From Candidatus Saccharimonadota bacterium (lineage in GTDB: Bacteria > Patescibacteriota > Saccharimonadia > Saccharimonadales > Saccharimonadaceae): a stretch of DNA of 64,000 nucleotides. Within the stretch, counting starts at the first letter, position 1; each line of letters opens with the position of its first letter. The translations under genes and the position numbers were made by a program. Below, in pieces: positions 25,217 to 35,762 of the stretch. The stretch covers positions 1 through 64,000 of the forward strand of contig DAICXK010000004.1 in NCBI GenBank assembly GCA_027312225.1, in the 5' to 3' direction. The notes beneath the pieces were generated by a model. That model searched no databases, was not told where the DNA came from, and saw only the letters and a program-made list of their open reading frames with translations.

Positions 25217-25293
25217 GGGCCATTAGCTCAGCTGGTTAGAGCACCTGCCTCTTAAGCAGGGTGTCCTGAGTTCAAGTCTCAGATGGCCCTCCA
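25217..25293 (+). tRNA. tRNA-Lys(CTT), CCA encoded; anchor of the cassette array (junction J0)
   Basis: GGGCCATTAGCTCAGCTGGTTAGAGCACCTGCCTCTTAAGCAGGGTGTCCTGAGTTCAAGTCTCAGATGGCCCTCCA. Confidence 0.95.
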
Positions 25294-25332
25294 AGGTAAA
25301 AAGTCCTGTCGTAAGATAGGGCTTTTTACTTT
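25293..25332 (+). terminator. Terminator directly after tRNA-Lys
   Basis: AAGGTAAAAAGTCCT...AGGGCTTTTTACTTT. Confidence 0.75.
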
Positions 25333-25485
25333 GAAATAATCAAGTTGTTATGACTGACATATGGATACATTGAACCCAACCCAAATCTGCAACTGATTAC
25401 ATTACTCTTGCACGACAGCTTACTGCAATCATAATAAAATATCGCTCAAAAAAATGAGCGATATTTTGTCAGCGCAAGCGATGTT

Positions 25486-25935
25486 TTATCGGCTTCTACC
25501 GTAACCACCTTGGTGGCCACCTTCACCACTACCCCATTCATGGTCAGCTGAGTTTGCCGCGTGACGTTTTTCGCGCTCCGCAAGACGTTCCGTAATTTGT
25601 TCGGTAGTAAGTCCACGCGCTTCCCAGCGAGCTTTCGCGGCTGCTTCCATCTTTGTTCGAAAGTCCTCTTCGGTCATGCCTTTTTCTTTGGCAATTTGCG
25701 ACATTGTTTTAGTTTCGAGTGCGGTTTGTAGTTCTTCGACCGTCATACCGACTACACCAGCTCGTGATTCGAGTGATGCCTGGCGACCACCACCGTATCC
25801 TCTCCCACTGCCATTATACGACTGAACACCAGCTTGATTGCTAGTGCTATTTTGCGCAGCGACATTTAGGCTAGTGGCGCCAGCTACACCCACAACGGCG
25901 AGCACTGCGATACTTGCGATCAATATTTTATTCAT
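25486..25935 (-). CDS. Small secreted protein, DUF2680-like
   Basis: Signal peptide; MTVEELQTALETKTMSQIAKEKGMTEEDFRTKME; Gly/His-rich tail. Confidence 0.6.
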   Translation of the reverse strand: MNKILIASIAVLAVVGVAGATSLNVAAQNSTSNQAGVQSYNGSGRGYGGGRQASLESRAGVVGMTVEELQTALETKTMSQIAKEKGMTEEDFRTKMEAAAKARWEARGLTTEQITERLAEREKRHAANSADHEWGSGEGGHQGGYGRSR

Positions 25936-25994
25936 ATTACAAATCTCCTTTTTTAACTTATGTTTGCATATGTAGTACTACAATAGACGCAATA

Positions 25995-26486
25995 TTATTT
26001 CACTAAATTCGTTCTCTGCCAGCCAGATCCACGGTGAGTGTTTTGTATATCGTTTTGCTTACCTGAATGGAACGTACCCATGCCAAGAATAGAAAAACCC
26101 ACGCCTAGAACTATAGATATAAGCAAGAAAACTGTTAAGATTGTTGTGGTTTTTTGACGATATAGAGTGCCCTGCTTGCGAATAAGCCACACAGCAACAA
26201 CAGAAAGTATCGCTGCAAAAATCACCGTCCACCAAGGAAACGAACTTAGGACAGCGCCTAATTTAGCACGAGCCCCCCATGCCATCGTATCGGCAGTTTG
26301 AATTCTTATCCACATAAACACAACGTTCATTAGATACGCTACAATTAGGCTAGCAGCTATCGTCCCCGCCGCGGACAATACGAGCAAGGCTGCGAAATAC
26401 CACTGTGGGCGCATAGTAACATCACCATTTTTGATTTGCTCAATCACTGCTGCTGCCGTTGATTTATTCATAATAGGCTTTTTCAT
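25995..26486 (-). CDS. Two-TM protein, putative anti-sigma factor
   Basis: ATGA overlap with the sigma gene; hydrophobic segments. Confidence 0.6.
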   Translation of the reverse strand: MKKPIMNKSTAAAVIEQIKNGDVTMRPQWYFAALLVLSAAGTIAASLIVAYLMNVVFMWIRIQTADTMAWGARAKLGAVLSSFPWWTVIFAAILSVVAVWLIRKQGTLYRQKTTTILTVFLLISIVLGVGFSILGMGTFHSGKQNDIQNTHRGSGWQRTNLVK

Positions 26487-27043
26487 AGCGTCACCCCTTT
26501 CTGCTTGCATAATGTTCGTAACTTGATTTTTGCGCGAGACAACCAAACGCCAACGGTCGAACGCGGTATATGCAGCACATCGCTGACATCATCGTATTTC
26601 ATGCCCTCAAAGTATATAAGCTGTATAACCTCACGGTATTTCGGCTCTATTTCCTCCAGACATTCATGGACACGCTCCTTTAGCATACCGGCCTCAACAA
26701 GATCATCGAGGCGAGATTCATATGATTGGTCAGGCAAAGCCTGGATGTCTTCATCACAAATATGTTTGTTCTTTTTAACGATGTTCATAGCTTCATTGTG
26801 AGCGATTCTATAAATCCAAGAGCTAAATTTATAGCTAGGTTTATAGCTTCGTAGATTTTGGTATGCTTTAATGAACGTTTCTTGAACCGCGTCCTCGGCG
26901 GCGGCTTGGTCATGGATGAGGTAGATGACGTAGCGCAGCAATCTTGATTCGTACCGGGTCATGAGTGTGGCATAAGCATCGGCATCGCCTTCGATAACTT
27001 GGACTACGAGTACTTCATCGCTTACCTCTACGCTTTTTGCCAT
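26483..27043 (-). CDS. ECF RNA polymerase sigma factor (RpoE-like)
   Basis: YLIHDQAAAEDAVQETFIKAYQNLRSYKPSYKFSSWIYRIAHNEAMN; region 4 YDDVSDVLHIPRSTVGVWLSRAKIKLR. Confidence 0.92.
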   Translation of the reverse strand: MAKSVEVSDEVLVVQVIEGDADAYATLMTRYESRLLRYVIYLIHDQAAAEDAVQETFIKAYQNLRSYKPSYKFSSWIYRIAHNEAMNIVKKNKHICDEDIQALPDQSYESRLDDLVEAGMLKERVHECLEEIEPKYREVIQLIYFEGMKYDDVSDVLHIPRSTVGVWLSRAKIKLRTLCKQKGVTL

Positions 27044-27376
27044 AAGTACATGATATATCATTTGACGGAATGGCTGCTTAAACGGCTAACTTTGGTGTTT
27101 AGAAAGCAACACCCTAAAGTATCTAACCAAACTCATCCTATCGCTACGATATCTCCTTTTAGGTTTCTGAAGTTCATATGTGATACATAAAGAACGTTAA
27201 AATTATTTCAAGTTATTTTTTCAATCGAACATATTCCCTAAAATGAAATACAGATACTGTCTTCGGACGGAAGATGAAGCTACCAAGAGCCAAGAATCAT
27301 TAGCGGTTAATATAATAATAAGTCAATCAATTCTCTTTTAGGTTGATACGTAAAACTCCTTTGACATTCTAATTTT

Positions 27377-27406
27377 AGTTGCAACAGTGATACATATGTC
27401 CCTCCA
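27377..27406 (+). repeat. Cassette junction J1 left arm + core
   Basis: AGTTGCAACAGTGATACATATGTCCCTCCA, then ATATGGTTATGCTTAAA and hairpin. Confidence 0.8.
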
Positions 27407-27423
27407 ATATGGTTATGCTTAAA

Positions 27424-27446
27424 CTCCTCTGTTATGAGGAGTTTTT
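27424..27446 (+). terminator. Terminator hairpin in the J1 right arm
   Basis: ACTCCTCtgttatGAGGAGTTTTT. Confidence 0.75.
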
Positions 27447-27532
27447 CGTGTAACACGTATTGACATTTCAATGTATTTTTGTAATAATATAAAATGCTCA
27501 CGTACCCTATCAGCATTGGAGTTGAAAAGCTA

Positions 27533-28060
27533 ATGAGCAAGCTGACAGTCGTAAGAACCGAGCTTGCCGCAAACCCTGCGGTAAGCGTCGTCGAGGACCG
27601 CCAGAAGAACTTCATGTCCGCTGCTGGTTTGTGGAACCACTGGGTCGACATCATCGTCGTACCCGCCCATGGTCTCTACACAGCAGAGGAGCTTCAGAAG
27701 TTCATGGACGGTCTTGTCACGATCAAGCCGACGCAGTCCGACCACTTCTACCAGTACGACACCGGCATGGCGTTCGGCAAGCTCTACTTCGACGAGACGA
27801 TCGGCACGATCGTCACCACCGGCACCCAGACGATCACGATCACCGACCCCGATGTCGTCGCGCCCGACGACTACAAGGAAGGTGTCCTGACCGTCGACAA
27901 GTCCGGAACTGTCGACCTCAGGCGTCGGACGCTCCTCTGGGTCTACCCAGATGAACACTTCGCACGACGAGCCATCGAGCAGGATACCGACGTGTATGAC
28001 ACGCGAGAGCCGGTCACAGTTGGCGCTCGTCGTCGCGGATTCCTGCGTAGCCGGAGCTGA
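27533..28060 (+). CDS. GC-rich orphan cassette protein (MSKLTVVRTELAANPAVSVVEDRQKNFM...)
   Basis: ORF with G/C-ending codons; upstream TTGACA/AATAAT promoter at ~27459-27487 and GGAG. Confidence 0.7.
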   Translation: MSKLTVVRTELAANPAVSVVEDRQKNFMSAAGLWNHWVDIIVVPAHGLYTAEELQKFMDGLVTIKPTQSDHFYQYDTGMAFGKLYFDETIGTIVTTGTQTITITDPDVVAPDDYKEGVLTVDKSGTVDLRRRTLLWVYPDEHFARRAIEQDTDVYDTREPVTVGARRRGFLRSRS

Positions 28061-28184
28061 TCTCAGTGACGGCGTCAGCATCGAGCCGTTCAGGGACGGG
28101 CAAGAGCCCGCTCTCTGAGCGGCTCTTGTCATGTTTATCTTCGAGAATCTAGTTCATAGAAAACTGATTTTTCTCCGCGACAAT

Positions 28185-28214
28185 AGTTGCAATAGACTCC
28201 ACTATGGCCCTCCA
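28185..28214 (+). repeat. Cassette junction J2 left arm + core (overlaps recombinase stop)
   Basis: AGTTGCAATAGACTCCACTATGGCCCTCCA. Confidence 0.85.
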
Positions 28215-29878
28215 AGTGTAGATTTGTAGCCCAGTGCTACCTGAAACAGTCCGTTCATATCTGTTGGCGGGCTGTTTTTTGGTGTTTCAAAGTCTATGTC
28301 AGCGTACGTTGGCATAGCGTTGAATATGAGAGCAAAAAATGCCGAGCGGCGGAGCGGGTTACTAGTGTTAAATACAAGTTCGTAGAGGTGTTTCAACAGG
28401 TACTTCGCGTATTGTAAAACCTGTTCCATATCGACGGTGTTCTCGGCCTGACAGAGCAACTGTTCATCGAGCGCTTTGATTTGCTTCTCCGTGCTTACGA
28501 TATCGTCTTCCATGTATTTTATTGCCGTCTCACTCGTCAGTATCTTCATATGATCAAGCGTGACGCGGATTTGTGCTTCGAGAGCTTGTTTCTGCTCAAT
28601 AAGCTTGTCATTGTCTTGGGTAGTTCGTGAGACTTTTTCTTCATACGATTCGGCTATCATTTGAGTCAGCTTATCTATGTACTCTGGTGCGATCTCAATA
28701 CTCTTTATGAAACGCTCGATTGCAGCATCAAAGTCAGCAAGCGGCTTTCTAAAATAGTGACCGTTACGAGAACAATGGTAGGCTGGATAATATTTGCCCA
28801 TTTTGCCACGCGCCGCACTTCCGGACAGCGGCTTTCCGCAGTAGGGGCAGCCTATGACTTTCTTGTACGGAAACTTGTCATTGATAATCTTTTTGATCTT
28901 CTGCCATTCCGGCGGCTCTCTACGGTGAACAGTTACTCTGTTGCTGTTGAGCTCAATGATATATTTGCCGTGATTAGCGTCGTTAAACATATCTATCGAC
29001 ACTAAGCCGTCAAACTGTGCCTTAACCGGCTTGTCATGCGTCCATTTCTCCTGAATTACACCAGCATAAATCAGTCGGTGGATGAAACGATCAACCATCT
29101 TCTCGTCCATCAGCTTCCCGCCATGCACGCTCTTGATCTTTGAAGGGTCATATCGATCACGCACAATCGTCTTGCGTGTCCTAAACCCAAGTCCATTGCA
29201 GGTATCGGCGATCTCTTGGTTACTATAGATACCTTGAGCTCTCATTTCAAAAACCCGGCGAATAAATACAGACTCCTCGGGATGCGGCTTGAGTATCATG
29301 CGCTTACCGTGGTTGCTATCAACCATTTCGCTCACGAAGCCGTAGGGCGGCATTCGCATCCAATAGCCCAGTTGCGTGTAGCGGATCTGAGCACCGATCA
29401 TACGCGTCATGATGTCACGTAGTTCGTCCTTGGCGTGTTCGGCCTCGAGTATCTCGCTCTTGAAACTGGGGCTATAGTCGCTCCAGTAGTACTTAAAACC
29501 TGTATACTCCAATGTATTGACACGTCGAGTATCGATAATACCAAATGTATCGATAAGTGTTACATTGAGCTCGTCAAGCTGTTCTTTGAGCTTAATGTAT
29601 GCGCCCGAACCGCCACGGGTGAAACGATCAATGGCCTTAATGAGAACAACTTCGATTGCTGGATTCTCTCGGCACTTTTCAACAATTGCCTGCATTGGCT
29701 GTTCTTCGTGTGATGCCGACTCAACCAAAACGACCGAATCGATAATCTGTATATTCTGCGTCCTTGCAAGGCTCTCGCCTCGTTGCCGCTGCTCCTCCGG
29801 CGAATCGCCCTCGCGTTTCTGTTTACCAGATGATACTCGTATAGCAAGCAGGCCGATTCTTTCACTGTTTGGCTGCAT
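28202..29878 (-). CDS. Large serine recombinase (resolvase + recombinase + zinc ribbon domains)
   Basis: GLLAIRVSSGKQKREGDSPEEQ; IKAIDRFTRGG; CPYCGKPLSGSAARGKMGKYYPAYHCSRNGH; C-terminal coiled coil. Confidence 0.95.
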   Translation of the reverse strand: MQPNSERIGLLAIRVSSGKQKREGDSPEEQRQRGESLARTQNIQIIDSVVLVESASHEEQPMQAIVEKCRENPAIEVVLIKAIDRFTRGGSGAYIKLKEQLDELNVTLIDTFGIIDTRRVNTLEYTGFKYYWSDYSPSFKSEILEAEHAKDELRDIMTRMIGAQIRYTQLGYWMRMPPYGFVSEMVDSNHGKRMILKPHPEESVFIRRVFEMRAQGIYSNQEIADTCNGLGFRTRKTIVRDRYDPSKIKSVHGGKLMDEKMVDRFIHRLIYAGVIQEKWTHDKPVKAQFDGLVSIDMFNDANHGKYIIELNSNRVTVHRREPPEWQKIKKIINDKFPYKKVIGCPYCGKPLSGSAARGKMGKYYPAYHCSRNGHYFRKPLADFDAAIERFIKSIEIAPEYIDKLTQMIAESYEEKVSRTTQDNDKLIEQKQALEAQIRVTLDHMKILTSETAIKYMEDDIVSTEKQIKALDEQLLCQAENTVDMEQVLQYAKYLLKHLYELVFNTSNPLRRSAFFALIFNAMPTYADIDFETPKNSPPTDMNGLFQVALGYKSTLGGP

Positions 29879-30050
29879 CGTCCGCTCCTATGTTCAGGAT
29901 AGTAGCTATCTTGGCTCCCACGTCCTGATCTTCTAAAATTCGCTCAACAACCAGATCGGCTATGATTCGCATGCGTTGTTCCAGCGTATAAACGAATACC
30001 CCTTCGGTTACTGGTTTCGTCTTGTTTTTTGACCCCGCAGTTCTTGACAT
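29862..30050 (-). CDS. Small basic protein overlapping the recombinase start
   Basis: MSRTAGSKNKTKPVTEGVFVYTLEQRMRIIADLVVERILEDQ. Confidence 0.5.
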   Translation of the reverse strand: MSRTAGSKNKTKPVTEGVFVYTLEQRMRIIADLVVERILEDQDVGAKIATILNIGADDAAKQ

Positions 30051-30240
30051 AATTTTGCCCAATCAACTATGCTTTATATGAATAGTATACCACCCGAATA
30101 TGAATAGTTGCAATACTTTTATGCTAAATTCCTGTGGATAAAATCCCCACTATGCAAATACCATACATTTTGTTGTTTTTTCTCTGTTAGCTCTTTTCTT
30201 TTTTCTCTCCTTTCTTTATATATACATATAAGGCAAATGT

Positions 30241-31029
30241 ATGAAGCGGTATGAGCCAAAAACAAGGTACAAGATTTCGGATAGTCAGGTGACGTTATTA
30301 TTGGCTGTATTAAAGTATCGGTTTGTGAGTAGTGATGTTGTAGCAGAGAGTATAGGGAAAGATAGATCAACGGTATATGAGAGACTCAGTGTCTTAGTTG
30401 ATCGAGGGTATGTCGTAAAGATGTATGACAAGACGTATAGATTGCGGCAGAGACCAGTTATTTACTATTTAGCACCACTCGGTATACGGTATCTTAAGAA
30501 ACTTGGGCATGAACGGACGCAGCTACACTACAAGAACAAAACCTTCAGTGATGAGCAGATAGACGAGCAGTTCTTACTAGGTCAGATGGCACGAGCGATT
30601 CGGCGGCAATACGACGATAAGCTCATACTCTATACCAAATACCAGTTAGGAAGCGATGGTTTCTACTTGACGCCGCCGCCCTTTGCCAAGTTTGTCGGTA
30701 AGACAGACAAAATCCCAGACTACTTTATGGAGTACTTCCCTGAGCGTCATGAGAGTTGGAAGATTAGACGGCGTATTAACCAGCATATTGACTATGCTGA
30801 TGAGAACGATGAGTATGCCTACCCACATCTACTCATTATCTGCGGCAACCAGAACACCGAGAAGAGAGTGGTGAGAACGACTGAAGACCTATGGGCAGAC
30901 TTCCTCGTGTTTACGACTACCAGGGAACGGCTGCTCAGCGGCGAGAAGAAGGTGTGGCTCAGGCCCGAGGAGGTGGATTGGGAGGAGGAACTGGAGTTTC
31001 ATAGCTTGCCGATGAGGTATGAGGAATGA
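30241..31029 (+). CDS. Winged-helix, replication-relaxation-like protein
   Basis: QVTLLLAVLKYRFVSSDVVAESIGKDRSTVYERLSVLVDRGYVVKMYD; YYLAPLGIRYL. Confidence 0.6.
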   Translation: MKRYEPKTRYKISDSQVTLLLAVLKYRFVSSDVVAESIGKDRSTVYERLSVLVDRGYVVKMYDKTYRLRQRPVIYYLAPLGIRYLKKLGHERTQLHYKNKTFSDEQIDEQFLLGQMARAIRRQYDDKLILYTKYQLGSDGFYLTPPPFAKFVGKTDKIPDYFMEYFPERHESWKIRRRINQHIDYADENDEYAYPHLLIICGNQNTEKRVVRTTEDLWADFLVFTTTRERLLSGEKKVWLRPEEVDWEEELEFHSLPMRYEE

Positions 31030-31130
31030 AATATGCTGACAAGCAAAAGTGAAATACTACCCCTGTAAAAGAAAAAATTAAGTGAAATAATGTAGTATTC
31101 ACGAGTGAAGTACTGTGATACAGTAGACGC

Positions 31131-32291
31131 ATGATCAAAACGCCAGAGCCGAACTACAATTCGAAGTTAACGGACATCATAATTCAGCTAGAACACTTGC
31201 GAGGACGTAGCGTCTCTAGTTCAACAAGCCAACAGATATTCGTACAACTCAAAAATCTTTTCCATATCATCGAAGCGCTATCTAGTGCTCGTATCGAAGG
31301 CAATCATACGACACTTGCAGGCTTCGTGGAAAAGCGCGCTCGAAAAAGCGAAAATGTGCAAAATGAGGATGAGAGCATGAAGGAAATCATCAACCTCATG
31401 CATGCGCTCGACTTTATTGACGAGCATATTGCAGCCATGCCAATAAGCCGTGATTTCATACTTGAGCTCCATAAAATTGTCGTTAGTGGTTTGACCCGCG
31501 AAGGCGATGACCACACTGGTGGTTTCCGTACTAAAGATGTCTCAATTGCAAATTCAAAGCATACTCCACCGTCACACTACGATGTAGCCGACTTGATGCG
31601 CGAGCTTATTGAATATATAGGCAGTGATACGAATAGCCGCGATGAGCTACTTAAGATCGCACTGGCACACCACCGGTTCGTATGGATTCACCCGTTCGGC
31701 AATGGTAACGGCCGTACCGTGCGGCTTCTGACATACGCAATGCTTTGCAAGAAGGGGTACATTGAACCAAACACACTCCGCCTATTTAACCCGACAGCCG
31801 TGTTCGCTGGTGACCGCTACAAATACTACGACATGTTGGAACGCGCAGATACGGGCGATGACACAGGCTTACTCGACTGGAGCGAATATTTCCTAAGCGG
31901 CATAAAAGACGAAACCGAAAAAACATTGCGCCTAGCAGATAGTAATTTCGTGAACGGCAAATTGCTCCTACCGGCTATATCACGTCTCAACTCGGCCGGG
32001 GTGCTTACAAGATTGGAGACGAGCACATTGGAACGCGCCGTGCGTAAGAAGACTATTAAAGCAGCTGACATTGCCGACCTGTGGGACAAAGATGTTGTAC
32101 CTTCTGCGGTCGCTAACCAAATTAAGAAAATGCGCGACGCCGGCTACCTGGCTACACTAAAAGAAGGTGGCCGCGAGTATAGTATAAACTTCATCGACAA
32201 CGATCTAACGCGTCTCGTGCTAGATCAAATGGAAGCCGAAGAACTACTGCCAATTCATGTAGATGACCTCGCCAAGGGAAGAACTGAATAA
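31131..32291 (+). CDS. Fic family AMPylase-like protein with N-terminal inhibitory motif
   Basis: IHPFGNGNGRTVRLLTYAM Fic motif; SARIEGN inhibitory-type motif. Confidence 0.92.
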   Translation: MIKTPEPNYNSKLTDIIIQLEHLRGRSVSSSTSQQIFVQLKNLFHIIEALSSARIEGNHTTLAGFVEKRARKSENVQNEDESMKEIINLMHALDFIDEHIAAMPISRDFILELHKIVVSGLTREGDDHTGGFRTKDVSIANSKHTPPSHYDVADLMRELIEYIGSDTNSRDELLKIALAHHRFVWIHPFGNGNGRTVRLLTYAMLCKKGYIEPNTLRLFNPTAVFAGDRYKYYDMLERADTGDDTGLLDWSEYFLSGIKDETEKTLRLADSNFVNGKLLLPAISRLNSAGVLTRLETSTLERAVRKKTIKAADIADLWDKDVVPSAVANQIKKMRDAGYLATLKEGGREYSINFIDNDLTRLVLDQMEAEELLPIHVDDLAKGRTE

Positions 32292-32617
32292 TGAAGATTG
32301 CCCTTCAGCAAGTTCAGGCAAACATTGGCGACATCGCCAACCGCCACGAATATAGCGCGGATGTTATCTATGAGCTGTTGGCGGCCTATGGCCGGTCAAA
32401 GTCGGCAATTACGCAGCTGCGTGAAGGTCACCTAAACAAAGCCGAAGACGCTGGCGCCGTACTGCAAAAAGACGTGGTCTATTTCAAGACCTTCGCGGCC
32501 GGTGCATCGCTGGAACACGAAGTGAGCGAACTATATGAAGACCCACTCACGCCGGCCGAAAAGCAGGCCATAGACGAGCAAGTTATAATCATCGACCCAA
32601 TAACTCGCGGCAAATAA
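32291..32617 (+). CDS. Hypothetical protein coupled to fic; resembles the N-terminal region of type IIG/Eco57I-like RM proteins
   Basis: ATG overlaps the fic stop region; VIYELLAAYGRSKSAITQLREGHLNKAEDAGAVLQKDVVYFK (resemblance from memory, not searched). Confidence 0.5.
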   Translation: MKIALQQVQANIGDIANRHEYSADVIYELLAAYGRSKSAITQLREGHLNKAEDAGAVLQKDVVYFKTFAAGASLEHEVSELYEDPLTPAEKQAIDEQVIIIDPITRGK

Positions 32618-32647
32618 ATCTTTGCCAAACATTGTATAATAAGGTCA

Positions 32648-32857
32648 ATGTCACAAGATCTGTCTAAAGTCGGTAATAATTTGCAACGCGCTCGGCACCA
32701 GCAAAACCTCACCCAAGCTGAGGTTGCGAAGCGCGCCGGAACGACAGTAAACCATTACGCTAAAATTGAGCGTGGCGAAGTCGTGCCGTCACTCAAAACT
32801 CTCGAGAAAATCATCAAAGCTCTAGACGTAAGGTCGTCCGATATACTGCCGTTCTAG
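32648..32857 (+). CDS. XRE-family HTH regulator
   Basis: LQRARHQQNLTQAEVAKRAGTTVNHYAKIERGEVVPSLKTLEKIIKAL. Confidence 0.85.
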   Translation: MSQDLSKVGNNLQRARHQQNLTQAEVAKRAGTTVNHYAKIERGEVVPSLKTLEKIIKALDVRSSDILPF

Positions 32858-33081
32858 CTCGGCGTATCGTCGCCATGCTTTTTGAGAAACTCTTCAAAAT
32901 CGAGCTTAGTCTTGCTGCCGATGCCGATAGAGACTTCATCCATACGTTTTAGCATATAGATTGCATAGTCGCGATTGGCTTTTGCCGGGTCATTGTAACG
33001 AAGAAACTTCAGCGCAGCTTGTATTGCCTCTTCACTTTCAGCGAGGTCTAAATCTTTGAAATCTTCGTCAGCGGTCGACAT
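32854..33081 (-). CDS. Small acidic protein
   Basis: 75 aa ORF overlapping the next gene. Confidence 0.5.
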   Translation of the reverse strand: MSTADEDFKDLDLAESEEAIQAALKFLRYNDPAKANRDYAIYMLKRMDEVSIGIGSKTKLDFEEFLKKHGDDTPS

Positions 33082-33511
33082 AATTCTTCATCCCTATAAA
33101 ATCTATCAATTGTTCTGCTTGCACTGAGGATACGACTCTTCTCATTATCTCGCAACTGTCGCTAAACGACAAAATATTCAAGCTGCCCTCGTAAAATACC
33201 TCACTATCGATAATCGCTAGCTTGCGGTGATGACCAATGGTATAGAGCACTAAAATGCCCATTTCTTGCATCATGCTCACCGCTTCGAGTGCCTGGCGGC
33301 AATAATCACCATCATGCTCTACTGGATCTTTTGTGTTGATAATCACCATAACCCCACGACGACGAAGCTTTGTGAGAATGGGCAGCAGTGCCGCCATGCG
33401 CCGTGTGGTGATAAACGGGCTCTCGATAATAACTTCGTGCCGGGCGCGCCGTAAATCACGCTCAAACTGGCCGTAGAAGGTATTCTGGTCGTAAAGGCTA
33501 GAGTTTTCCAT
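33068..33511 (-). CDS. PLD-like phosphodiesterase domain protein
   Basis: ARHEVIIESPFITTRRMAALLPILTKLRRRGVMVIINTKD; HHRKLAIIDSEVFYEGSLNIL (single HxKxxxxD). Confidence 0.75.
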   Translation of the reverse strand: MENSSLYDQNTFYGQFERDLRRARHEVIIESPFITTRRMAALLPILTKLRRRGVMVIINTKDPVEHDGDYCRQALEAVSMMQEMGILVLYTIGHHRKLAIIDSEVFYEGSLNILSFSDSCEIMRRVVSSVQAEQLIDFIGMKNYVDR

Positions 33512-33630
33512 CTAAATCCTCCAAATACACCTCACCATCACGCATCGTTACGCCAAGTGCAACCATTCGGTTGTAAAGCAACTCTAAATCAGCAAACAAC
33601 TCCTCCGGATTGAGTTTCAAATCTGGGACT
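33509..33630 (-). other. Truncated or non-ATG ORF running to junction J3
   Basis: Minus-strand reading EVPDLKLNPEELFADLELLYNRMVALGVTMRDGEVYLEDLDGKL*; no ATG at the start; possible TTG. Confidence 0.4.
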
Positions 33631-33642
33631 TCAGACCCTCCA
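33613..33642 (+). repeat. Cassette junction J3 (divergent left arm + core)
   Basis: AGTTTCAAATCTGGGACTTCAGACCCTCCA then ATACGCTTATGCTTAAAA. Confidence 0.7.
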
Positions 33643-33656
33643 ATACGCTTATGCTT

Positions 33657-33686
33657 AAAACAGAGATACTAATCTCTGTTTTTTTG
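33657..33686 (+). terminator. Terminator hairpin in the J3 right arm
   Basis: AAACAGAGATactaATCTCTGTTTTTTT. Confidence 0.8.
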
Positions 33687-33701
33687 ATTTATAATCATTT
33701 C

Positions 33702-34481
33702 ATGGACCTAAGAACAGTTACATGGAATATTGGTGGTGGGAAGCTGCTTAAAGACAGTGAAGACCCAGGACTGATGGCATCGTACACAGTTGATGGTATA
33801 GATGTCATTGCACGGCAAATAGCCGAAACTAATCCCGATATTGTTACTATTCAAGAAGCGCACGGTGATGACGGCGACAATCAAATTGCACAAATCGCCA
33901 AAGAGCTTGGTTACGAGCATTTCTTCTACGATGCGATAACTGATTCGCATATTGATTCGACTTATAAGCTTGGCAATGGGCTTATTTCGAGGTTCCCAAT
34001 TTCTGATGTCCAAACTGGAAGATTCTTGAACCCAGAATTAAATTTCGAGCTTGAGGGCAGGAAAGCCTTCACTCACGATAAAGGCTACGGCTCCTGCACG
34101 GTTAGAATTGGCGATATTGCGATATACGCTACTTCACTCCATCTCATACCGTTTAGGAGAGTTGGATTAGATTTCGACTCCGATACTGCCCTGCAAATCC
34201 TGGCAAGCGTATCAGCTGAGCTAAAAGACAAGCAATCAAGTGACTATCGACTTATTCAAGGGGATTTCAATATAAATTCCGACACAGTGAGGGCTTATCT
34301 CCAAGACCTGTTTGGCTCAGACAAGCTTGCCGAGGTAGTGCTCGACCAACCGACCACTCCAAAGGAGCGAATGTACGACCATGTATTATACCGAGGCTTG
34401 AGGCTTCGTAGTTTTAGCGTGGATTCAGACGTTCTTACTGACCATTATCCAGTAATCTGTGATTTTGAGATTGAACAATAG
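33702..34481 (+). CDS. Endonuclease/exonuclease/phosphatase (EEP) family protein
   Basis: TVTWNIGGG, IVTIQEAHGDDG, IQGDFNIN, LTDHYPVICDFEI. Confidence 0.88.
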   Translation: MDLRTVTWNIGGGKLLKDSEDPGLMASYTVDGIDVIARQIAETNPDIVTIQEAHGDDGDNQIAQIAKELGYEHFFYDAITDSHIDSTYKLGNGLISRFPISDVQTGRFLNPELNFELEGRKAFTHDKGYGSCTVRIGDIAIYATSLHLIPFRRVGLDFDSDTALQILASVSAELKDKQSSDYRLIQGDFNINSDTVRAYLQDLFGSDKLAEVVLDQPTTPKERMYDHVLYRGLRLRSFSVDSDVLTDHYPVICDFEIEQ

Positions 34482-34509
34482 TTCCAATAGAGTACACGAT
34501 GGCCCTCCA
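34480..34509 (+). repeat. Cassette junction J4 left arm + core
   Basis: AGTTCCAATAGAGTACACGATGGCCCTCCA then TACCGCTTATGCTTTAAATGA. Confidence 0.85.
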
Positions 34510-34568
34510 TACCGCTTATGCTTTAAATGATTTCTTTACGTAGTCATTTTTTCATATACAATTAAAGT

Positions 34569-34895
34569 ATGGACTTAAATGACTTACAAAATAGAGCAAT
34601 TGAGATTCGTGATAAGTATGATGAGTTGAATAAAGCTAAGCGCGGTATAACATGGAATGAACAGCAGCTTATGGCTGGATTCGTAGGTGATGTAGGTGAT
34701 TTATCAAAGATAATTATGGCAAAACATGGCTTAAGGTCTATGGACGATGTTGATACAAAACTTGCCCACGAACTATCAGATTGCCTGTGGTCAATCCTTG
34801 TATTGGCAAGTAAGTATAATGTTAATCTCGAACAAGAGTTTCAGAATACAATGGACGGACTCGACGCTAGAATTGATTCTGAACTAGCAGCATAA
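34569..34895 (+). CDS. MazG-like nucleotide pyrophosphohydrolase family protein
   Basis: MAGFVGDVGDLSKIIMAKHG...KLAHELSDCLWSILVLASKYNVNLEQEF. Confidence 0.75.
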   Translation: MDLNDLQNRAIEIRDKYDELNKAKRGITWNEQQLMAGFVGDVGDLSKIIMAKHGLRSMDDVDTKLAHELSDCLWSILVLASKYNVNLEQEFQNTMDGLDARIDSELAA

Positions 34896-34906
34896 GTTCG
34901 CAGATT

Positions 34907-34936
34907 GGTTGCTATAGCGTCCACCACGGCCCTCCA
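34907..34936 (+). repeat. Cassette junction J5 left arm + core
   Basis: GGTTGCTATAGCGTCCACCACGGCCCTCCA. Confidence 0.8.
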
Positions 34937-35122
34937 CGAATCATCCCCACCTTGTGTGGGGGTTTTCGTGGAGCCAAGAAGGCCTGATTCTTGACACCCG
35001 TGGGGTGAAGAGAGTGAGAACTGCCAGTCGGCAGTTCGCAAGGAATCCTTCCGTTGAAAGTTACGCTTCATAGGTGAAGTTTCGGGGTCGCGGAACGTGA
35101 CCAAGTCTCTCCTGTCCCTCCA
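34937..35122. other. ORF-less 186-bp unit between J5 and J6, possibly a structured RNA
   Basis: No substantial ORF; hairpin CTCCACGAA...CCCCAC/GTGGGG...TTCGTGGAG at its start; tRNA-T-arm-like end (CCAAGTCTC..CCCTCCA). Confidence 0.4.
35099..35122 (+). repeat. Cassette junction J6, tRNA-Lys-like left arm + core
   Basis: GACCAAGTCTCTCCTGTCCCTCCA aligns ungapped with tRNA GTTCAAGTCTCAGATGGCCCTCCA; then TAGAGCTTATATTAAAAC. Confidence 0.65.
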
Positions 35123-35132
35123 TAGAGCTTAT

Positions 35133-35164
35133 ATTAAAACAGAGATTATCATCTCTGTTTTTTG
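35133..35164 (+). terminator. Terminator hairpin in the J6 right arm
   Basis: AAAACAGAGATtatcATCTCTGTTTTTT. Confidence 0.8.
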
Positions 35165-35178
35165 TTATAATGCAAATT

Positions 35179-35694
35179 ATGAAGATACTCCAAATTATTC
35201 GAGATTCAAATGTATTTGATGGCTCAGAAAACCTTCCAAGTGATGATTGGTTTAAGCGACAAGCATCGAGGGCAGTCCTGTTTGATCAAGATGGGCGGGT
35301 ATATCTCTTGAAGATGTCCACCTACAATTATCACAAATTACCAGGTGGCGGTGTCGATGAAGGCGAATCGCTAGAAGACGCTGTGCGTAGAGAGTTGTTA
35401 GAAGAAGTTGGATGTCCTGCCGATGTATCTTCGGAACTAGGAGAGATCGTGGAATACCGCAATGACGACAAAATGGAACAGCATTCTTATTGCTATGTCG
35501 CGCATCAATCCGGTGACCTCGTAGAGACTGCTCTCGAAGAAAGCGAAATCGAAGAGGGTGCAAAAACAGTCATTGCCAACAATATCGATGAGGCAATCAA
35601 TCTTTTAGAAAATGATCAACCTACAAACTACGAGGGGCATTTTATTCAAATGAGAGATTTGCGATTTTTACGTGAGGCTCGGTCTGTAATTTAG
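35179..35694 (+). CDS. NUDIX hydrolase
   Basis: GGGVDEGESLEDAVRRELLEEVGCPADV (Nudix box). Confidence 0.92.
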   Translation: MKILQIIRDSNVFDGSENLPSDDWFKRQASRAVLFDQDGRVYLLKMSTYNYHKLPGGGVDEGESLEDAVRRELLEEVGCPADVSSELGEIVEYRNDDKMEQHSYCYVAHQSGDLVETALEESEIEEGAKTVIANNIDEAINLLENDQPTNYEGHFIQMRDLRFLREARSVI

Positions 35695-35722
35695 TTGCTA
35701 CCACGACACATGTGGCCCTCCA
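35693..35722 (+). repeat. Cassette junction J7 left arm + core (distal end of array)
   Basis: AGTTGCTACCACGACACATGTGGCCCTCCA. Confidence 0.85.
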
Positions 35723-35762
35723 AAGAAAAATCACCTCAATACGGAGGTGATTTTTCTTTTAC
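35722..35762 (+). terminator. Long-stem terminator after J7, probably the displaced original tRNA-Lys terminator
   Basis: AAAGAAAAATCACCTCaatacGGAGGTGATTTTTCTTT. Confidence 0.75.

Follow-up and report, generated by a model that had tools for sequence, protein, structure and literature searches.

Gene cassettes behind a tRNA-Lys gene

Modular gene capture is classically illustrated by integrons, whose known examples rely on a tyrosine recombinase acting on folded sites. The locus described here lies in the window (the whole 64,000-nt stretch of DNA analysed) and raises the question of whether a large serine recombinase (LSR) can build a comparable array at the end of a tRNA gene. A first-pass annotation of the sequence had described an integron-like array anchored on tRNA-Lys(CTT), in which the last 7 nt of the tRNA, CCCTCCA, recur as a core at every junction. 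All eight of its cores were recovered at their coordinates, as was the spacing of exactly 30 bp that it had claimed for an AGTT/GGTT motif at J1–J5 and J7. The parts of the locus are as follows.

25217–25293, plus strand: tRNA-Lys(CTT), the anchor (ARAGORN, Rfam)
25294–27406, no strand assigned: segment A; terminator, then minus-strand genes for a secreted protein, an anti-sigma-like protein and an ECF sigma factor
27377–27423, plus strand: J1, full site (left arm, core, right arm); matrix rank 5, right-arm pattern
27407–28214, plus strand: cassette B; terminator, promoter-like sequence and a single gene (27494–28060, 188 aa, without family)
28185–28214, plus strand: J2, left arm and core, adjoining the LSR end of segment C; matrix rank 1
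28202–29878, minus strand: LSR, 558 aa (Resolvase and phrog_95 matches, alignment)
28215–33642, no strand assigned: segment C, the recombinase element; LSR, wHTH protein (30241–31029), Fic (31131–32291), HTH (32648–32857) and PLD-like (33068–33511, minus strand) genes; ends and gene content match elements of G197 and G133
33613–33659, plus strand: J3, end arm of the recombinase element (AGTTTC), core and cassette right arm
33643–34509, plus strand: cassette D; terminator, predicted promoter and endonuclease/exonuclease/phosphatase gene (Pfam; ORF listed from 33651, start likely near 33703)
34480–34526, plus strand: J4, full site (left arm, core, right arm); matrix rank 2, right-arm pattern
34510–34936, plus strand: cassette E; MazG-like gene 34569–34895 (weak match, E=0.0035, below cut-off)
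34907–34936, plus strand: J5, left arm and core; matrix rank 3
34937–35122, no strand assigned: segment F; non-coding unit of ~190 bp with a tRNA-3′-end copy at its end
35116–35139, plus strand: J6, core and right arm
35123–35722, plus strand: cassette G; terminator, predicted promoter and NUDIX gene 35170–35694 (Pfam, E=6.5e-17)
35693–35722, plus strand: J7, left arm and core, distal end of the array; matrix rank 8
35723–35760, plus strand: terminator hairpin

The CCCTCCA 7-mer by itself is mildly enriched, with 12 occurrences in the window against 5.3 expected (12 were reached in 0 of 100 shuffles), and the signal resides in the arms, not in the core alone. A 23-nt left-arm matrix that excluded the core and was trained solely on arrays from other genomes placed J2, J4 and J5 at ranks 1, 2 and 3, J1 at rank 5 and J7 at rank 8 among 127,956 positions on both strands. 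The array region holds five left-arm matches of at least 12 bits, compared to a mean of 0.22 in 200 shuffles. The right-arm pattern, allowing up to three mismatches, occurs three times in the entire 760-kb genome, every time at this array (J1, J3 and J4), and was absent from the reversed control.

The annotation had read one plus-strand gene in each of B, D, E and G, and this reading was correct; other parts of it needed revision. The arm to the left of the J3 core is not the left arm of a cassette but the right end of the recombinase element, and two relatives carry a match to it at the homologous position. The left side of J6 is a copy of a tRNA 3′ end that closes segment F; relatives of this segment occur in G023 and G197, and it matched no Rfam family except tRNA. 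The sequence adjoining tRNA-Lys is a terminator and segment A, which ends with the J1 left arm and has no right arm on its tRNA side; the array proper therefore begins at J1. Segment A is absent from the congener G001. The hairpin at 35723–35760 has the form of the terminators found directly 3′ of uninterrupted tRNA-Lys genes in relatives, and is probably the tRNA's own terminator, displaced.

Related arrays occur across Saccharimonadales

Across Saccharimonadales, sampled mostly as metagenome assemblies, we catalogued 21 arrays behind tRNA-Lys, -Trp and -Gln, with further sites at tRNA-Met. The arrays comprise 84 segments with a median length of 645 bp, and the largest contains 22 junctions. 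The core always repeats the final 6–7 nt of the tRNA behind which the array stands (CCTCCA for Lys, CTGCCA for Trp, TAGCCA/CAGCCA for Gln and CCACCA for Met); in the Lys, Trp, Gln and Met arrays alike, site and tRNA have just this short core of 6–7 bp in common. The junctions of each array all lie on one strand, and 68 of 76 segments have their longest ORF on the plus strand, reading outward from the tRNA: as in an integron, single-gene cassettes stand in one orientation. Cassettes carry predicted -10-like boxes and terminators of their own. Of 77 segments, 44 have a terminator-like hairpin within their first 95 nt, compared to 9 with one at mid-segment, and the corresponding counts for a -10-like box are 68 and 36. 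The cargo includes NUDIX, GNAT, toxin-antitoxin and nuclease genes.

Enrichment of the junction motif beyond chance, which the annotation had proposed as a check, was found at every level, from the window to the family, the order and G044. Of 198 genomes of the family, 20 contain the right-arm pattern, with ~27 matches compared to 1 for the reversed control, and the combined left-core-right pattern gave 72 matches against 17 within the order; outside the order it stayed at background level (9 against 8). With a held-out matrix, G044 showed 18 left-arm matches that are each followed by a core, inside an 18.6-kb array, while its shuffled 99-kb contig gave ~2 per strand. We set aside single right-arm matches of a loose pattern with neither left arm nor array (genus g2 'ACTTCCA', L106–L111), which are probably chance or unrelated sites. 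An inverted-repeat symmetry of the left and right arms, plausible by eye, was not borne out (4.15 of 11 matches, null 4.22).

Cassettes turn over between junctions

Homology of cassettes between genomes starts and stops at junctions. The counterpart of cassette D is the sole cassette at tRNA-Lys(TTT) of G161, where the protein is 66% identical and the homology spans core to core. Another cassette occurs in both G287 and G317, its homology running from -30 to precisely +0 relative to the junctions, and cassettes shared between genera are preserved whole from one junction to the next. In G161 the cassette lies between tRNA-Lys and its terminator; in most of its congeners the terminator directly follows the tRNA, which represents the empty site. 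Within one genus, congeners hold different cassettes at the same tRNA-Gln. The cassette variation at orthologous tRNAs of relatives that the annotation had suggested looking for is thus present. No homologue of cassette B was found in plasmids.

Recombinase elements share target and end motif with the cassettes

The LSR in the window combines a Resolvase catalytic domain (E=3e-7), a recombinase domain (21.0 bits, just below the cut-off of 21.1; 35.1 bits in its G197 homologue) and a zinc ribbon (Cys344/347/369). Catalytic S16, R14 and the D84-R85-R88 motif are conserved in the alignment, and the final codons read through the core. It matches the phage integrase family phrog_95 (E=1e-31). Since no relative was found in viral contigs, and the closest phage proteins, Paenibacillus integrases, are only ~21% identical, nothing indicates that element C is a known phage. 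No sequence relative was found in the PDB.

Elements that match segment C at both ends and in gene content sit at tRNA-Lys in G197 and G133, the latter a plain LSR element with both ends visible; one LSR was observed per element. Because LSRs are common in the family, we judged their link to arrays by adjacency to the tRNA and not by presence in the genome. In six arrays (G197, G317, G174, G287, G330 and G289) an LSR lies directly behind the anchoring tRNA, while in the window it lies inside the array. Cassette-free LSR elements share the GTTnC end motif and its register with cassettes: GTTnC stands at -29 in 12 of 109 downstream tRNA cores, compared to 11 of 4,756 other CCA sites (P=6e-17). 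The annotation's attribution of the array to an LSR, which it had put forward as an inference, gains independent support from LSRs that directly abut the anchoring tRNA-Lys, -Trp and -Gln, and from this common register.

Some observations count against an LSR. About half of the catalogued arrays have none beside the tRNA, and near-identical arms occur in arrays served by LSRs of different subfamilies. Of 26 genomes searched, nearly all with arrays, 9 had no PF07508 match, several of these nine being incomplete. In the window, the tRNA adjoins segment A and not a right arm. Moreover, the cassette right arm bears no resemblance to the LSR-side arm of LSR elements, which leaves LSR recognition of the cassette right half-site without explanation.

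Discussion

The evidence points to an LSR, and not an integron integrase, as the placing enzyme. Genome comparison establishes the anatomy of the sites, the core-tRNA match, junction-to-junction homology, cassette turnover, LSR adjacency and the shared end motif. We infer that the LSR is the catalyst, that it works in trans and where the crossover lies, and consider it probable that these integron-like arrays were built by LSRs, with recombinase-less cassettes mobilised in trans by tRNA-targeting enzymes.

In the mechanism we propose, LSR-encoding elements of Saccharimonadales integrate precisely at the 3′ CCA terminus of a tRNA gene. The LSR gene forms their tRNA-side end; at the far end lies an arm of ~23 nt that starts with RGTTnC, and after it the 6–7 nt of the tRNA end are repeated. 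Small cassettes without a recombinase share this far-side arm and core and have a different right arm, WANNGSTTATGCTTAAA; an LSR would integrate them, and presumably excise them, in trans. With the crossover falling within the 6–7 shared nt, the tRNA end would be restored at each insertion. Most cassettes appear to open with a terminator and a promoter-like sequence of their own, which would let the tRNA transcript still terminate and the cassette gene be expressed independently. Repeated insertion at core sites would then yield directional arrays.

It is unlikely, by comparison, that successive LSR islands accreted in ordinary tandem at one tRNA and decayed by deletion to CIME-like remnants, with no dedicated cassette system. 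LSR elements do insert at these tRNAs, the window includes a full element and the irregular pieces A and F, and CIME-like islands without integrases are a published precedent (PMC3146451, PMC5704250). Decay remnants, however, would not share a cassette-specific right arm that LSR elements lack, nor a uniform size of ~0.6 kb, single complete genes, a 5′ terminator and a common orientation (68/76); shared cassettes stay intact between junctions across genera, and arrays of up to 22 contain no LSR remains. Derivation of the cassettes from ICEs or IMEs by deletion was rejected because the cassettes have a right arm that LSR elements lack and complete single genes.

We regard as improbable a role for the chromosomal tyrosine recombinase (Xer/XerA), which would move the cassettes as in pdif modules or Xer-exploiting elements while LSRs merely share the tRNA hotspots. 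Most array genomes have an Xer-like protein, and the arms are conserved across tRNAs despite differing LSRs, yet G161 (93% complete) has a cassette and no Phage_integrase match. Furthermore, site and tRNA are identical over just 6–7 bp with no shared binding arm alongside, as expected of the attB/attP pair of an LSR rather than of a tyrosine core site, and both the uniform direction of all junctions and the arm register common to LSR elements count against Xer. A true integron of diverged form (IntI with attC cassettes) is very improbable, although single-gene cassettes, directional arrays and the NUDIX, GNAT and toxin-antitoxin cargo resemble one. The genome has no integron integrase; the sole tyrosine recombinase (PF00589) found in it is XerC/D-like (143.6 bits, TIGR02249 cut-off 265) and lies on another contig, unlinked to the array. 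The core is a tRNA copy, and six junctions fold no more stably than shuffles (z -1.5 to +1.1), leaving a folded attC-like site structure unsupported.

The arrays also differ from the systems they most resemble. Like integrons, they are one-orientation arrays of promiscuous single-gene cassettes with a recombinase adjoining or missing (cf. In0/CALIN); unlike integrons, they involve a serine recombinase, a double-stranded-type site without attC fold, a tRNA end as target, and cassettes with their own terminator and promoter-like sequence. Accretion CIMEs (ICESt1 type) likewise bear att sites without a recombinase; they are mobilised by a neighbour, as the cassettes may be, but are kb-scale ICE remnants of tyrosine systems with no gene-cassette uniformity. 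The cassettes here have sites at both ends and no recombinase, and their turnover may reflect mobilisation in trans. The small mobile gene modules of pdif (XerCD-dif) systems also lie between short recombination sites, but these are 28-bp dif-like sites in opposite orientations, Xer-dependent and without a tRNA; a pdif module was rejected here, since all junctions of an array lie on one strand and the architecture is not dif-like by inspection. The closest precedents are SCC and the Dehalococcoides ssrA islands. SCC elements (Ccr serine recombinases) pile up one behind another at the 3′ end of a single gene, but measure tens of kb, use paired Ccr enzymes at rlmH and have a core not matched to a tRNA. 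The ssrA islands (DsiB, CcrB-like), as the available text of PMC3146451 describes them, have a serine recombinase on the reverse strand on the RNA-gene side, are tandem, flanked by directly repeated copies of the RNA 3′ end with a conserved motif just 5′ of the repeat, and in some cases lack a recombinase. They differ in their single tmRNA target, insertion in the T-loop, 20-bp repeats and multi-gene content with a six-gene integration module; single-gene cassette arrays are not described in that text. The annotation's view that this is not a described class needs qualifying: tandem accretion of serine-recombinase islands at a tmRNA 3′ end is already published (PMC3146451). The single-gene cassette form was absent from the papers searched. 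Among papers accessible without subscription, none on serine-recombinase cassettes in Saccharibacteria/CPR was found.

On balance we lean towards a second, independently evolved integron-like platform, in which LSRs capture, excise and reshuffle single-gene cassettes in tRNA-anchored arrays across the order, with tRNA end and terminator restored. If so, integron architecture would also be reached by way of a serine recombinase, showing that cassette arrays do not depend on a single chemistry. This route would further supply numerous natural LSR/att-site pairs whose specificity is encoded by the tRNA, an advantage in that the tRNA predicts the core, and LSR-driven cassette exchange becomes directly testable. 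Saccharibacteria are tiny parasitic bacteria with reduced genomes, and such a platform would help explain how the smallest parasitic bacterial genomes acquire single genes such as NUDIX, GNAT, toxin-antitoxin and nuclease genes.

Results

The eight CCCTCCA cores and the AGTT/GGTT spacing reported by the first-pass annotation are present in the window. The 7-mer alone was over-represented, but modestly; we therefore built a 23-nt matrix on the left arm (the stretch 5′ of the core), with the core excluded, trained it on arrays that do not come from this genome, and applied it to both strands of the window. Among 127,956 positions, junctions J2, J4, and J5 took ranks 1-3, J1 rank 5, and J7 rank 8. 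J3 and J6 have no left-arm match and carry a right arm (the sequence 3′ of the core) in place of the cassette left arm. Right-arm sites at ≤3 mismatches number three in the whole 760-kb genome (reversed control, 0), of which the window is contig 17. Outside the held-out tests, matrices were trained on part of the sites they scored, and junction lists were curated in part by eye.

Pieces of the window array, between tRNA-Lys and the last junction
Segment A: 25294-27406, tRNA-Lys to J1; ECF sigma/anti-sigma/secreted-protein operon
Cassette B
Recombinase element C: holds a 558-aa large serine recombinase (LSR)
Cassette D: endonuclease/exonuclease/phosphatase gene
Cassette E: MazG-like gene (weak match)
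Segment F: 34937-35122, 186 bp; non-coding, hairpins
Cassette G: NUDIX gene

Segment A has a plain terminator at its 5′ end and a good left arm at its 3′ end. Non-coding, hairpin-bearing kin of segment F (∼190-200 bp) were found at locus L093 and in G197 (C71, 24099-24299); these units, segment F included, end on the right in a copy of the 3′ end of tRNA-Lys from the same host; in G023 and G197 the copy is about 21 nt long. A search for an Rfam family for them found none. Such a unit may serve as an anchor piece or represent the smallest form of a mobile unit.

The window LSR conserves its catalytic and zinc-ribbon residues. Its closest relatives are in 'Candidatus Saccharibacteria' assemblies, and on this basis we place the host in Saccharimonadales. 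Relatives at 71-75% identity lie immediately 3′ of tRNA-Lys(CTT) in G122, G177, and G197; at the corresponding place, G133 has a core, and the sequence just ahead of this core resembles the 3′ end of a tRNA. The G133 element is solitary (tRNA-core-LSR ... GGTTTCGAAAAAGTATACGCTGG-core-flank; 11 kb) and has no cassettes. G197 has the same element followed by cassettes. The order HTH, 75-aa protein, PLD ahead of J3 is identical in G197, so J3 is, judged by gene order, the right end of element C. LSR reading frames continue across the attachment core and end on the antisense strand of the tRNA (window, 28202-28214; L211, 12929; L216, 9269; L209, 10016), so the last residues (...TLGGP in the window; ...SNPRHPA and ...GLEPVTFGL in others) are supplied by the target. 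Integration would necessarily alter the LSR C terminus, possibly as a switch.

Across Saccharimonadales, many of whose sampled genomes are metagenome assemblies, the left arm-core-right arm pattern gave 72 matches in 55/391 genomes versus 17 for the reversed pattern; outside the order, the counts were 9 versus 8. In the loci retrieved around the matches, three kinds of tRNA gene (Lys, Trp, and Gln) anchor arrays, and tRNA-Met has sites as well; the core tracks the tRNA: CCTCCA (Lys), CTGCCA (Trp), TAGCCA or CAGCCA (Gln), and CCACCA (Met). The G044 array (L173, G044:C15), also checked with a held-out matrix, comprises 22 junctions on one strand over 18 kb, the first 417 bp 3′ of tRNA-Lys; at the threshold used for these 22, the 99-kb contig has no junctions outside the array. 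No LSR lies alongside.

Segments have a median length of 645 bp (n = 84), and in 68 of 76 the longest ORF is directed away from the tRNA. The first 95 nt contain a terminator-like hairpin in 44/77 segments (mid-segment, 9) and a −10-like box in 68 (mid-segment, 36). The cargo, which is integron-like, includes NUDIX (7 of 76 proteins), GNAT, YoeB and YafQ toxins, PIN, and nucleases. A right arm is either of the GSTTATGCTTAAA or of the AGCATAAGCATNAT form; the two are nearly reverse complements of each other and occur mixed in one array (L174, L173, L175, and L177).

Six genomes (G197, G317, G174, G287, G330, and G289) have an antisense LSR immediately 3′ of the anchoring tRNA. These LSRs belong to several subfamilies, and the 3′ end of each abuts the tRNA end or runs across it. 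As an independent test, we examined downstream copies of the tRNA 6-mer in 16 tRNA-associated LSR elements, all but one of which were taken without selection for cassettes, for GTTnC at −29, as in cassettes. It was found at 12/109 copies (11/16 elements) versus 11/4,756 other CCA sites (P = 6e-17); the far-side arm is therefore common to LSR elements and cassettes. Cassette site and tRNA are identical over 6-7 bp only, and only such short identity is expected of LSR attP/attB pairs. On short LSR attP/attB identity, compare PMC5704250. The tyrosine recombinase of the window genome is XerC/D-like and unlinked to the array, and none of this kind was detected in G161, where a cassette is present. 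For most LSRs examined in Saccharimonadales, the site is the 3′ end of a tRNA gene (Glu, Leu, Phe, Gly, Met, Trp, or Gln), not a usual LSR target; a second LSR of the window genome (contig 19, 47117-48742; L031) is directly 3′ of tRNA-Phe.

Window cassette D is the sole cassette 3′ of tRNA-Lys(TTT) in G161 (proteins 66% identical), with DNA homology from one junction's core to the end of the next junction. It separates the G161 tRNA-Lys from a terminator that is directly 3′ of the tRNA in most congeners. The congener G001 of the window host has no array between tRNA-Lys and murB. G287 and G317 have a common cassette in different neighborhoods, homologous from 30 nt ahead of one junction to exactly the next. 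Cassette variation at orthologous tRNAs is seen at the tRNA-Gln loci of G287, G317, and G330, which are orthologous by their upstream flank and differ in contents.

Discussion

We propose that an LSR would insert an element or cassette at the tRNA CCA end, with crossover within the 6-7 nt common to cassette site and tRNA. The incoming element would restore the tRNA end, a cassette would bring its terminator, and repeated insertion would yield an array. Our guess is that, with the cassette right arm, a newly formed junction can still serve as a target, and that LSR-side arms may not allow this.

In their way of working, the arrays resemble integrons, and the lone, recombinase-less G044 array is comparable to CALINs. 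They are nevertheless not integrons: an integron integrase and attC sites were both tested for, and neither was found. SCC, one near case, is to our knowledge not described as a single-gene cassette array. The Dehalococcoides ssrA islands (PMC3146451) are the nearest published case: a serine recombinase lies at the RNA-gene side, the RNA 3′ end recurs in tandem direct repeats with a conserved motif upstream, the recombinase is missing from some islands, and a single-gene cassette array is not among the features described. Taken together, these comparisons lead us to regard the arrays as a new form of accretion by serine recombinases, one that would reach integron architecture.
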